Shown piece by piece: positions 26,405 to 34,660 of a stretch of DNA of 37,714 nucleotides. The position numbers were made by a program, and so were the translations under genes. The first letter of the stretch is position 1. The number at the start of each line of letters is the position of its first letter. A model generated the notes under the pieces. That model had not been told where the DNA came from. It did no database searches and was given only the letters and a program-made list of their open reading frames with translations. This DNA comes from Deltaproteobacteria bacterium (GTDB lineage: Bacteria > Myxococcota_A > UBA9160 > UBA6930), in the NCBI GenBank assembly GCA_002687015.1, contig NYZB01000188.1, forward strand, positions 1-37,714. Reading direction: 5' to 3'.

Positions 26405-26487
26405 CGGCCGTCTGCAACGTCTCCCGCCCCGACCGGGCCCTAGCGCGCTCTCCGGCCTTCTCGAGGGCCCTGGGCCGAAACCCGACG

Positions 26488-26503
26488 TGGCACTGGCCTT
26501 GCA
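26488..26503 (+). promoter_or_regulatory. Sigma-54 (RpoN) -24/-12 promoter of the flgB operon
   Basis: TGGCAC-N5-TTGCA, with the invariant GG (26489-26490) and GC (26501-26502) separated by exactly 10 bases, matches the RpoN consensus almost fully. Transcription should start near 26514, giving a leader of about 33 bases before flgB. Such promoters need an AAA+ activator; the fragment at 23722 cannot serve. Confidence 0.88.
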
Positions 26504-26546
26504 CATGTCCGGACCGACGCCCCACCTGCGGGGGCGGGAGGATGCA

Positions 26547-26939
26547 ATGCCGGAGATCGAGAAGTCTGCCGTGGTCCTGCTCGAGCAGGCCATGCGCTTC
26601 CGTGCGGCCCGCCAGGCCGTGCTCTCCAGCAACGTCGCCAACGCCGACACCCCGGGCTATCGCCGGGTCGAGCTCGAGTTCAAGAACCAGCTCGACGAAG
26701 CCGCCCATCGCCTCGCGCGCACCGATGCCAGCCATCTGGGCCCGGCCGGGGGTGGCCCGGCCGGCGACTACACGCTCCGGGTCGGCCCGCGAGGAACCCG
26801 TCCGGACAAGAACGGTGTGGAGCTCGACGCCGAGCTGGTCGCCTTGAACCGCAACGCCGGTGCCTTCCAGGACCAGGCTGCCGTCCTCGCGCGGTTGCAC
26901 GTCCTCCGCCGCATCGCCGTCACTGGGGAGGCCCGCTGA
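26547..26939 (+). CDS. flgB: Flagellar basal-body proximal rod protein FlgB
   Basis: 130 residues. AARQAVLSSNVANADTPGYR is the rod/hook family motif that opens all axial proteins; YTLRVGPRGTRPDKNGVELD (D-G-N/K-N-V-x-x-D) and a C-terminal heptad helix follow. FlgB forms the first layers of the rod above the MS ring. ATG 26547 is preceded by GGGAGG. First gene of the operon; the next start overlaps its stop (TGATG). Confidence 0.93.
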   Translation: MPEIEKSAVVLLEQAMRFRAARQAVLSSNVANADTPGYRRVELEFKNQLDEAAHRLARTDASHLGPAGGGPAGDYTLRVGPRGTRPDKNGVELDAELVALNRNAGAFQDQAAVLARLHVLRRIAVTGEAR

Positions 26940-30265: not shown

Positions 30266-30902
30266 GCAGGAGCCCTCCGCCGGCTTCGGTTTCGAGCCGG
30301 ATCCCCTCTACGCAACACAGGGTGGTTTCGAACCGAGCGATGGGAATGCGAAGAGTGGCGCGGCCAGCTCGGAGGAGCAGCTGCAGGCCGCCTTCGAGAA
30401 GGGCCGCGAGGCGGGTCGAGCCGATCTCCCGTGGCGCGAGGCCGAGGGATTGGAGAGCGCGACGCGCGCTCTCCAGGATGCCGTCGCCCGATTGGCCGAG
30501 CGCAGCGACGAGGTGGCTCGCTCGGGTCGAGCGGCCATTGTCGAGCTGTCGCTCGCGATCGCGCGCCAGCTGGTGGGCCATGCTCTCGAGCTCGACCTAG
30601 ACGCCCTCTCCGCGAGGATCGGAGCGGCGTTGGAGGTCGTCGCGGGCCAGACGCCTCTCGTGCTCGAGCTCGCGCCCGACGACCACGCCGTGGTCCTCGA
30701 AGGCGGTGCGCCGGGCATCGGGCAGATCACGGGAGAGCTGGGCGTGCGCATCGAGGCGAGTGAAGAGCTCACCCTCGGTCAGGCGCGGGTCCGGGGCGGC
30801 GAGAGCCGCGTCGAGCTCGACCTGGATCAAGCCCTCGAACGCATCCGCCAGGAGCTTCTCACCCTGACCAGCACGCGGGATGCCGCCGAGGAGACGGAAT
30901 GA
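30249..30902 (+). CDS. fliH: Flagellar assembly protein FliH
   Basis: 217 residues. The disordered N-terminus is followed by a helical stretch EEQLQAAFEKGREAGRADLP (FliH/YscL type). The C-terminal globular part has VELSLAIARQLVGHALELD, LVLELAPDDHAVVLEG and GVRIEASEELTLGQARVRGG. It regulates the ATPase FliI and tethers it to the C ring. ATG 30249 lies inside fliG (17-base overlap). The stop overlaps the fliI start. The N-terminal region lacks the long GxxxG repeats seen in some homologues. Confidence 0.9.
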   Translation: MTSSFRQEPSAGFGFEPDPLYATQGGFEPSDGNAKSGAASSEEQLQAAFEKGREAGRADLPWREAEGLESATRALQDAVARLAERSDEVARSGRAAIVELSLAIARQLVGHALELDLDALSARIGAALEVVAGQTPLVLELAPDDHAVVLEGGAPGIGQITGELGVRIEASEELTLGQARVRGGESRVELDLDQALERIRQELLTLTSTRDAAEETE

Positions 30903-32326
30903 GCGTCGAAGATCTCCGCGCGGCCGCCGCAGCGCCGGGATTCGGCGCGCTGGATGGCGCCTTCCTGCGAGCCTGCGTAGAACGGGTCGAGGCCCTGCCC
31001 CGCGCGGAGCTGGAGGGCTCCGTGACGGCCGTGGTGGGGACTTCCATCGAGGTCGGTGGCTTGCCCGCCCGGGTGGGTGCGCTCTGCAGCCTCGAGCCTG
31101 CCGGACGCGTTCCCCTGGCAGCCGAGGTCGTAGGCTTCCGCGATGGCCGCACGGTGCTGATGGCCCTGGCCGAGGCCAGCGGGGTCGGGCCCGGCACGCC
31201 GGTGCGCATGCGCCAGGCCCTCTCCTCCGCTCCGCCCGCGAGCGCCTGTCTGGGCCGCATCATCGACGGCCTCGGTCGACCTCTCGACCACGGCCCGCCT
31301 CTGCCGACGACCGGCACTCGCTCGCTCAGCGCCCGGCCCGAGTGCCTCCTCGAGCGCGATCGTATCGATACGCCCCTGGATCTCGGCGTGCGCTCGTTGA
31401 ACGCCATGATGACGGTGGGCCGGGGCGCACGCATCGGCCTCTTCGCCGGCTCCGGAGTCGGCAAGTCGACCCTGCTCGGCCAGATCGCCCGCGCCACGGG
31501 GGCCGACGCGATCGTGGTGGGCCTGGTCGGCGAGCGCGGACGCGAAGTGCGCGAGTTCGTCGAGCGCGATCTGGGCGAGGGTCTCGAACGCGCTGCCGTC
31601 GTCGTCGAGACCAGCGACAAGCCGCCGCTCCTGCGCAAGCGTGCGGCGCTCCTCGCCACGACGATTGCCGAGCAGCTCCGGGATGAGGGGAGACACGTGC
31701 TGCTCCTCATGGACTCGCTCACCCGCTATTGCACGGCGCTCCGCGAGATCGGGCTCGGGGCCGGCGAGCCGCCTGCGACCCGGGGCTTTCCTCCCTCCGT
31801 CTGGGCCGAGCTCCCCAAGCTGGTCGAACGAGCCGGCACCAGTGCGCGTGGCGGCTCGATCACGGGCATCTACACGGTGCTCGTGGAGGGCGACGACATG
31901 AGCGAGCCCGTGGCCGACGCCGCACGGGCCCTGCTCGACGGGCACGTGGTGCTCTCCCGGGAGCTGGCCGAGCGCGGTCACTTTCCGGCGATCGATCCCC
32001 TGGCCAGCGTCTCCCGGGTCATGCCCGACGTGATCCCCGCCGAGACCATGGCGGCAGCCGAGCACGCCCGTTCTCTGCTCGCTTCCTATCGGAACGCCGA
32101 GGACCTGATCGCCATCGGCGCCTACGTCGAGGGCTCGAACGCCGAGATCGACGAAGCGCGCCGCCTTCGCCCGCCGCTGCTCGACTTCCTTCGCCAGGGC
32201 CGCGACGAGTCCGCGAACCTCGAGGAGAGCTGGCAAGAGCTGAGGCAGGCCCTCCAGACACCCGGTGCGTCCGTCGAGCCCACTCCGCTTCGAGCGGCCG
32301 AGCCGGGCGGGGAGGTGGCCACGTGA
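30899..32326 (+). CDS. fliI: Flagellum-specific export ATPase FliI
   Basis: 475 residues. Walker A is AGSGVGKST at 183-191, Walker B VLLLMD at 267-272, and GERGREVREFVERDLGEGL and ETSDKPPLLRKRAA are the family's catalytic and inter-subunit motifs. The C-terminal part has ARGGSITGIYTVLVEGDDM and NAEIDEARRLRPPLLDFLRQ. It powers unfolding and loading of export substrates as a hexamer below the export gate. ATG 30899 overlaps the fliH stop, and its stop overlaps the next start (GTGA). Confidence 0.96.
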   Translation: MSVEDLRAAAAAPGFGALDGAFLRACVERVEALPRAELEGSVTAVVGTSIEVGGLPARVGALCSLEPAGRVPLAAEVVGFRDGRTVLMALAEASGVGPGTPVRMRQALSSAPPASACLGRIIDGLGRPLDHGPPLPTTGTRSLSARPECLLERDRIDTPLDLGVRSLNAMMTVGRGARIGLFAGSGVGKSTLLGQIARATGADAIVVGLVGERGREVREFVERDLGEGLERAAVVVETSDKPPLLRKRAALLATTIAEQLRDEGRHVLLLMDSLTRYCTALREIGLGAGEPPATRGFPPSVWAELPKLVERAGTSARGGSITGIYTVLVEGDDMSEPVADAARALLDGHVVLSRELAERGHFPAIDPLASVSRVMPDVIPAETMAAAEHARSLLASYRNAEDLIAIGAYVEGSNAEIDEARRLRPPLLDFLRQGRDESANLEESWQELRQALQTPGASVEPTPLRAAEPGGEVAT

Positions 32327-33267
32327 AGCCTCGCTTCCGCCTCGCCGCCGTCCTCCGGGTTCGCCGTCACGAGCAGGACCGGGCCTCGGCTGCACTCGCC
32401 GTCTCCGAGCGCGCGTACCGCGAGGCCCTTGCCGCGATCGACCGTGCGCAGGAGCGCGTGGCCGACGCGCGCCGTTTCCACGTCGACCAGCTCTGCCTGA
32501 GTCTCGGGGCTCCAGCCCTGAGGGCGGCTGCCTCCGGGGTGGCCTGGCTGGAGAGCCAGGTCGAGGGGGCGCGCGAGCGCGAAGAAGGGGCGCGGCGCCA
32601 GGTTGCCGAGCATCGCTCCGAGCTGCTCGCCGCCCGCCAGCGGGTTCGAGCACTGGAGCAGCTGGAACGAGTTCATGCCCGGCGTGTTCGAGCCGAGCAG
32701 GACCGGCGTGAGCAACGAGTTCTCGATGAGGCCGGCGCGCACGGCTTCCGACGCAGGGCCCGCGCCCTCGCCTGTGCATGGCTCTGGCTGGGGCCCCTCC
32801 TCCTGGGCACGCCCCTTCGCGCGGAGGAGCCCGCGACCGCAGAAGACTACGGCGTGACGCCTCTCCTGACGGAGATCCGCGCCCGGCAGGCCGCGCTCGA
32901 CGATCGCGAGCGCAGCCTCGACGATCGCGAACGCAGCATCGAGGCCCTCGAAGCGGCGGCCACCGAGAGCCTGGCCGAGCTGGAGCGCATCGCGCGCACG
33001 GTCGAGGAGCGCATCGAAGCGTGGGAGGCCGACAACGGCGACTCGGTGCGCAAGCTCGCGAAGATCTACTCGGCGATGGCTCCAGGTCGGGCCGCCCAGC
33101 TCCTCGAGGAGCTGGAGGTGGGCTTGGCGACACAGATCGTCGCGAAGATGAAGGACAAGAAGTCGGCAGCCGTGCTGGCACAGCTCTCGGAAGACCGCGC
33201 CCTCGACATGTCTCGCCGCGTGGCCCACCCGCTCGCAATGGAGCCCGCGTCGCCCAGCGCGAACTAG
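32323..33267 (+). CDS. fliJ: FliJ-MotE fusion protein
   Basis: 314 residues in one uninterrupted frame. Residues 1-140 are FliJ: KPRFRLAAVLRVRRHEQDRA at the start and a long antiparallel coiled coil to EQRVLDEAGAHG. Residues 143-167 are RRRARALACAWLWLGPLLLG then TPLRA, a signal-peptide-like or membrane helix. Residues 168-314 match MotE/MgtE-N-like flagellar proteins: a coiled coil with the repeat DDRERSL-DDRERSI, then KIYSAMAPGRAAQLLEELEV and QIVAKMKDKKSAAVLAQLSE. In related operons these are two genes. No ATG, GTG or TTG stands in frame at the junction, so separate translation of the second part is not obvious. Topology would be N-terminus inside, C-terminus periplasmic. GTG 32323 overlaps the fliI stop. 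Confidence 0.88.
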   Translation: MKPRFRLAAVLRVRRHEQDRASAALAVSERAYREALAAIDRAQERVADARRFHVDQLCLSLGAPALRAAASGVAWLESQVEGAREREEGARRQVAEHRSELLAARQRVRALEQLERVHARRVRAEQDRREQRVLDEAGAHGFRRRARALACAWLWLGPLLLGTPLRAEEPATAEDYGVTPLLTEIRARQAALDDRERSLDDRERSIEALEAAATESLAELERIARTVEERIEAWEADNGDSVRKLAKIYSAMAPGRAAQLLEELEVGLATQIVAKMKDKKSAAVLAQLSEDRALDMSRRVAHPLAMEPASPSAN

Positions 33268-33277
33268 GAAGGACCCC

Positions 33278-34660
33278 ATGAACGTACAAGCCGTACCGAT
33301 CGACGTCGCCGAAGCCCCCGCCGAGGCGCATGGCTCCGGTGAGGCGGGCGAAGGGAGCGTCGACTCCGTCTTCGCGGGCCTGCTCTCCGACGAGATGGCC
33401 GGCGATGGGGACGAAGAGCTGGCGCAGGAGGGTGAACCCGAGGAGCTGTCCGGCGATCTGGTCGCGGCCGAGGAGCAGGAGCCGGGAGCCCAGCACGCCT
33501 ACGGCAACTTCGTCTTCCAGCACTTCGCCCAGGCCCTCATCACCCTCCTCAAGGGGGTGAGCGCCTCCGATCTTGCGGAACAGGCCGAGGCCGCCGAGCA
33601 GAGCGCAGCTCTGCCGACCGAGCCTGTGGACGCGGAGGCCTCGAGCCTGGAAGAGGCCGTCGCCGAGGCGATCGCCGTCCCGCAGGAGCAGCCCGAAGCC
33701 GAGCTCGAGGCGCAGGCGCAGAGCGGCGAGGGCGTGCCGATGGCCGACGCGCCGGAGGCGGCAGAGCCCTCGTCAACCGAGCTTGCCATGGCCCACGCGC
33801 CGCTCGAGGGAGCGCGGAGCGGCGAGCCCGCACCCGCACGAATCGCAGAGCCTGGATCCGCCCGGAGCGATACCGCTCTCGCGACCGAGGGTCGAGTCGC
33901 AGCCTCTGCCGCGGGGCACCAGGCAGGCCCGGGAGGCGATCTGGGCGACCAGGGGAACGCATCCGGGCAGAACGCACTCATGCGCGAAGCCTTGGCATCG
34001 GATCGCGAGCCGGGTCTCCCGCCGACGGTGGGCCGATCCGCTGAGTTCGAGACCCATCTGGAGGGTCGCCTCCAGGCGCCCACGACATCGAACGCACCCC
34101 AGCCCGAGCCCGTTGCGGTCGATTCGACCCTCGCGACACCCGGTGTGGCCGCGCCCGCAGCCAATGCTGCCCCGACGACCTCGACGGCCGTCGGCGCACC
34201 CGAGGAGGCTCTGCCGGTCCAGGTCGAGTGGCTGGCGGCTCGCGGCGGAGGCAACGCCCGCTTCCAGCTGCACCCGCCCAACCTGGGCGAGGTCAACCTC
34301 TCGGTCACCGTGCGCGGATCGGCCGTCGACATCGTGATCCAGGTCCAGGACCAGGCCGCCCAGCTCGTCGCGCAGACCCGCGACCTCCTGGCACAGGGCC
34401 TGGGCACCCGGGATCTGCACATCGATCAGTTCGAGGTGCGCACGGCCCAGACCGATCTCGGGACCAGCGACGGCTCACCCCGCGACGAGACCGCGGAGCA
34501 TACCGGGACCGGCGCGTCGACGGGGGAATCCGGTGATCGCAGCGAGCCCGGTGAAGGCGAGAGCCCGCTGGTCTCCGATCTTCCGCCCGAAGTCGCGGAT
34601 CTGACGATGCGCGAAGAGCTTCGCGTGGACACCACGACCAACGTAGATCTCAAGGTCTGA
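33278..34660 (+). CDS. fliK: Flagellar hook-length control protein FliK
   Basis: 460 residues. The first 300 are Ala/Glu/Pro-rich, acidic and low-complexity, as is usual for the FliK ruler. The C-terminal hook-length domain has VEWLAARGGGNARFQLHPPN then LGEVNLSVTVRGSAVDIVIQ and QLVAQTRDLLAQGLGTRDLH. It measures hook length and switches export specificity through FlhB. ATG 33278 follows AGGAAGGA, 10 bases after the FliJ-MotE stop. flgD begins 9 bases after its own stop. Confidence 0.93.
   Translation: MNVQAVPIDVAEAPAEAHGSGEAGEGSVDSVFAGLLSDEMAGDGDEELAQEGEPEELSGDLVAAEEQEPGAQHAYGNFVFQHFAQALITLLKGVSASDLAEQAEAAEQSAALPTEPVDAEASSLEEAVAEAIAVPQEQPEAELEAQAQSGEGVPMADAPEAAEPSSTELAMAHAPLEGARSGEPAPARIAEPGSARSDTALATEGRVAASAAGHQAGPGGDLGDQGNASGQNALMREALASDREPGLPPTVGRSAEFETHLEGRLQAPTTSNAPQPEPVAVDSTLATPGVAAPAANAAPTTSTAVGAPEEALPVQVEWLAARGGGNARFQLHPPNLGEVNLSVTVRGSAVDIVIQVQDQAAQLVAQTRDLLAQGLGTRDLHIDQFEVRTAQTDLGTSDGSPRDETAEHTGTGASTGESGDRSEPGEGESPLVSDLPPEVADLTMREELRVDTTTNVDLKV

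Follow-up and report, generated by a model that had tools for sequence, protein, structure and literature searches.

The window (the whole 37,714-nucleotide stretch of DNA analysed here) carries a flagellar operon in which the export-stalk gene fliJ and the E-ring gene motE/flgY form one intact 314-codon frame (32323-33267, forward strand, no internal stop), and comparison with related sequences indicates that the two genes merged at least twice in this lineage of uncultured bacteria. We lean towards the view (probability of roughly 0.55) that the fused gene encodes a two-product precursor, which would be inserted in the membrane and cut by signal peptidase I. The gene order is fliE-fliF-fliG-fliH-fliI-[fliJ-motE]-fliK-flgD-flgE, with the FliJ part beside fliH-fliI and the MotE part adjoining fliK, and the relevant features are as follows:

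30899-32326, forward strand: fliI, export ATPase (PF00006 and PF18269), directly upstream of the fusion.
32323-33267, forward strand: fused fliJ-motE open reading frame, 314 aa, GTG start on the fliI stop (GTGA), TAG stop.
32323-32742, forward strand: FliJ domain, residues 1-140 (PF02050, 3ajw, antiparallel helical hairpin in AlphaFold).
32749-32763, forward strand: basic n-region RRRAR, residues 143-147 (sequence).
32764-32817, forward strand: 18-residue hydrophobic segment ALACAWLWLGPLLLGTPL, residues 148-165 (sequence; equivalent in 7/7 fused genomes).
32815-32829, forward strand: signal-peptidase-like site, LRA followed by EE (sequence; putative cut at 32823/32824).
32854-33072, forward strand: long helix of the MotE/FlgY domain, residues 178-250 (AlphaFold model).
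33055-33225, forward strand: MgtE_N / ARM-like four-helix head, residues 245-301 (PF03448, AlphaFold helices 254-301, Foldseek).
33278-34660, forward strand: fliK, hook-length control (PF02120), directly downstream of the fusion.

The first-pass annotation had read residues 1-140 as FliJ and the C-terminal part as MotE-like, and profile searches bear out both assignments. Pfam FliJ (PF02050) matched residues 20-140 above its cut-off (E 1.4e-8; profile positions 2-121 of 123), the NCBIfam FliJ model (TIGR02473) matched full-length over residues 4-144 with 46.5-50 bits (just below its cut-off of 50.45), and the nearest solved chain by sequence was Salmonella FliJ (3ajw, profile positions 6-144). 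For the second part, Pfam MgtE_N (PF03448) matched residues 245-298 above its cut-off (E 6.5e-6) and NCBIfam FlbB gave a weak match to residues 183-273; the assignment can be narrowed, in that residues 178-314 are an E-ring protein of the MotE/FlgY/FlbB/YlxF type (COG3334). AlphaFold, run on four fused sequences, modelled the FliJ hairpin with an antiparallel helix pair, 7-58 against 63-156, whose residues 11-130 have a mean pLDDT mostly >90; a stretch of low confidence (156-176), a long helix (178-250) and a head of four short helices (254-301) follow. The top Foldseek row was 9a67 (FliF-YlxF), with FliG and MgtE also listed (E-values weak), while the model searched as a whole gave no match under E 0.001, which we attribute to its long helices.

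Both parts thus resemble known proteins, the first by its sequence match (residues 4-144) to Salmonella FliJ (3ajw), its helical hairpin and its position after fliI, and the second by its signal-like segment, long helix, ARM-like four-helix head and location beside fliJ and fliK. The departure lies in how they are joined: known FliJ (whose stalk homologues in type III systems are YscO/EscO/CdsO) is soluble and free, about 150 aa in length, whereas here the open frame continues past its C-terminus through a signal-like helix to a second protein, leaving a free end only if the chain is cut. Likewise, known E-ring members have a signal peptide or membrane helix at their own N-terminus, but here that segment, as judged by sequence rules, is internal (residues 143-167) and lies behind a cytoplasmic domain. 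It reads RRRAR-ALACAWLWLGPLLLGTPL-RA and then EE, in agreement with the earlier description of a basic-then-hydrophobic stretch with an AxA-like end.

That a missed indel had joined two genes during sequencing or assembly was a doubt raised at the outset, and one that might have drawn strength from the source assembly being fragmented (279 contigs) and 82% complete; we now regard it, and likewise a missed stop, as excluded, since independent relatives keep the same frame. A look-up in related genomes, as the first-pass annotation had proposed, recovered the fusion in six other assemblies (35-56% identity where aligned): three are other species of the window's genus (G001, G003 and G004; full-length, 54-56% identity), two are species of a second genus (G037 and G052) and one is from a third (G040), giving 7 genomes in 3 genera with 0 internal stops. 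The separately deposited contigs that carry it include JAJDAR010000527, JAAELW010000085 and JANQRO010000121, and PF02050 and PF03448 were both matched in 6/6 fused proteins scanned. Moreover, in the close pair G003/G004 the differences in either half fall mainly on third codon positions of one frame, and the net length difference is 0, which argues that both halves are kept in a single frame. A basic start, a hydrophobic core of 14-18 residues and a signal-peptidase-like site are present in all fused proteins and also in most MotE proteins of split relatives; the quality of the site varies, the LRA of the window being weaker than its counterparts in relatives and that of G037 (PHA/AEG) poor. 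A scan of named genomes with the window protein as query gave no match, and with the fused alignment as query it gave four named records. A FliJ made separately by frameshifting was considered and rejected, as the fused genomes do not share their out-of-frame stops in the junction region (codons 101 to 217 are free of them in L006 and L007), and an apparent same-frame candidate (L065) proved false (negative linker).

Relatives with two separate genes do exist, in other genera, and represent the ancestral state and not an error in the window. Within the order, fliJ and motE are separate in 13 other genomes that have both, and in 13/13 the motE frame is offset from that of fliJ by phase 2, the offset expected of a 4-base ATGA/GTGA overlap (read directly as GTGA in G011 and ATGA in G015). 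The class sample comprised 91 genomes (28 with a hit), the survey being confined to one phylum; separate genes are likewise seen in the class outgroups and in most of the phylum sample, a few of these pairs being in phase 1 or farther apart. Given the phase 2 offset, it takes no more than a net change of one base to bring the two genes into one frame. Two changes of state (g1+g28, and g30) are required to account for the fused genes in the FliI+FliJ+MotE tree, and a single ancestral fusion, with all fused rows in one clade, was rejected at p-AU 0.019 for a group that had been chosen after the tree had been seen. Two changes were likewise needed in the FliI tree alone and three in the RpoB tree, both poorly resolved; change counts alone cannot separate gain from loss of the fusion, and it is the split state of the class outgroups that marks splitting as ancestral. 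Two departures from the usual arrangement were observed among split relatives: in L013 and L014 (G020 and G027, family f8) a MotE-like gene directly follows the fliG C-terminal end, with no FliJ found next to it, in contrast to other members of the order, whereas in L060 and L073 (G171 and G221) about 1.3 kb with something between separates fliJ from the MotE-like gene in place of the usual overlap.

How a protein of the periplasm would be obtained from such a frame depends in part on where translation can begin. The absence of ATG, GTG or TTG at the junction, remarked on earlier, extends further than the junction itself: in-frame start-like codons occur at positions 1, 46, 73 and 178, with none between 73 and 178, and a run of 104 codons lacking them has a chance of 0.003 at the operon's start-like codon frequency of 5.6%. 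Nothing conventional can thus start MotE together with its signal segment in the window. A separate MotE, translated from a non-standard internal codon, for instance CTG, or after re-initiation, which would make the fusion incidental, appears distinctly unlikely to us. It would accord with the translational coupling apparent in most split relatives and with G040, in which a GTG at codon 142 precedes a complete signal peptide, G004 (with a TTG) and G052 being weaker candidates; but in the window genome (G000), G001, G003 and G037 an in-frame start giving the whole signal peptide is absent from the approximately 75 codons upstream, the missing stop codon leaves no termination event to which re-initiation could be coupled, and FliJ would end in a hydrophobic segment anyway.

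A single fused chain has to span the membrane, and it would probably need cutting before it could function. On the precursor reading, the fused gene would have arisen from adjacent fliJ and motE/flgY, offset as in a 4-base overlap, when a net shift of one base within the overlap did away with both the stop of fliJ and the start of motE. The ribosome would then make FliJ first, the internal signal sequence next and MotE last; the MotE part would be translocated to the periplasm with FliJ staying cytoplasmic, signal peptidase I would cut at the AxA-like site, and FliJ, with a short hydrophobic tail by which it is anchored or which is clipped off, would act as the FliI stalk. We infer the topology, the cleavage, the fate of FliJ and the E-ring function. 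The weakest step of this cleavage model is the removal of the tail by a second protease, a step that may be needed since signal peptidase alone leaves the tail on FliJ.

The main competitor, which we hold to be doubtful, keeps the whole chain, with a permanent transmembrane helix between a cytoplasmic FliJ and a periplasmic MotE and the stalk tethered beside the MS-ring. The hydrophobic core of 18 residues, flanked by basic residues on the cytoplasmic side, is compatible with this, as is the AlphaFold FliJ helix that extends to residue 156, inside the hydrophobic segment (at low confidence from about 140). According to one review, MotE/FlgY forms a periplasmic ring around the MS-ring, and approximately two thirds of FlgY homologues (FlbB, with its transmembrane helix, among them) have an uncleaved membrane helix and not a signal peptide, which makes a tether possible (PMC13023049). 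Against it, both termini of the stalk homologue EscO enter the ATPase pore (PMC6367419) and the loop of CdsO, another such homologue, contacts the gate protein (PMC7584215); with a tether, the end of FliJ that inserts into the ATPase would be held at the membrane, the reverse of how its homologues are oriented in solved structures, and FliJ would lie outside the MS-ring at the E-ring radius and not under the export gate. With FliJ termini in the pore, its loop at the gate and MotE ringing the MS-ring, an uncut chain could hardly do both. This geometry, together with the signal-peptidase-like sites kept in the fused genomes, leads us to prefer cleavage over a permanent tether. The suggestion that the export chaperone is tethered beside the gate is therefore disfavoured, and proteolytic release of two products, the other outcome then envisaged, appears to fit the sequences better. 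An uncut chain in actual use, with FliJ coiled coils hanging from E-ring subunits below the membrane and around the MS-ring, seems unlikely; if true, it would provide a physical link between the complex of the export ATPase and the motor scaffold in the periplasm, a flagellar architecture undescribed before.

Precursors of this kind have a counterpart in the Bradyrhizobium cytochrome b/c1 precursor (fbcH), in which an internal signal sequence and a signal peptidase cut give two working proteins. The first part of fbcH is itself a membrane protein, whereas here it is a cytoplasmic stalk, and there is no sequence relation between the two systems. The FliJ-MotE fusion is without a published precedent that we could find in the open-licence literature, its parts being known; in the text searched, a 2026 review (PMC13023049) and a 2025 FlgY preprint (PMC11870540) mention adjacency to fliJ and no fusion. 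Identification of the E-ring protein is recent, and its gene adjoins fliJ in many phyla; that this lineage fused the two at least twice suggests that the pairing is functional. A link between export and stator assembly through the fusion, as proposed earlier, is speculative, and most relatives already have the two genes side by side with an offset that suggests translational coupling. We consider the fusion a natural construct for testing coupled production of export stalk and E-ring, and the prediction that follows is either a flagellar precursor cut by signal peptidase or a FliJ that works membrane-bound, the latter challenging the rotary-stalk orientation model.

As for the remainder of the window genome (279 contigs, 82% complete), a second FliJ or MgtE_N protein was not found in it, and at this completeness a second fliJ could be absent from the assembly. 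FlhA (PF00771) and the RpoB domain (PF00562) were also not found there, probably owing to missing contigs; the FlhA absence fits the 82% completeness, and FlhA is present in 6/6 other fused genomes, which indicates that the lineage has the export gate. A further member of the window's genus (G002, 90% complete) gave no FliJ-MotE match and no FlhA, and may thus have lost its flagellum. Elsewhere in the window, the listed GTG start of a flgB-like open reading frame (26487-26939) is probably too early, and the ATG at about 26547 (MPEIEKS) looks to be the true one.
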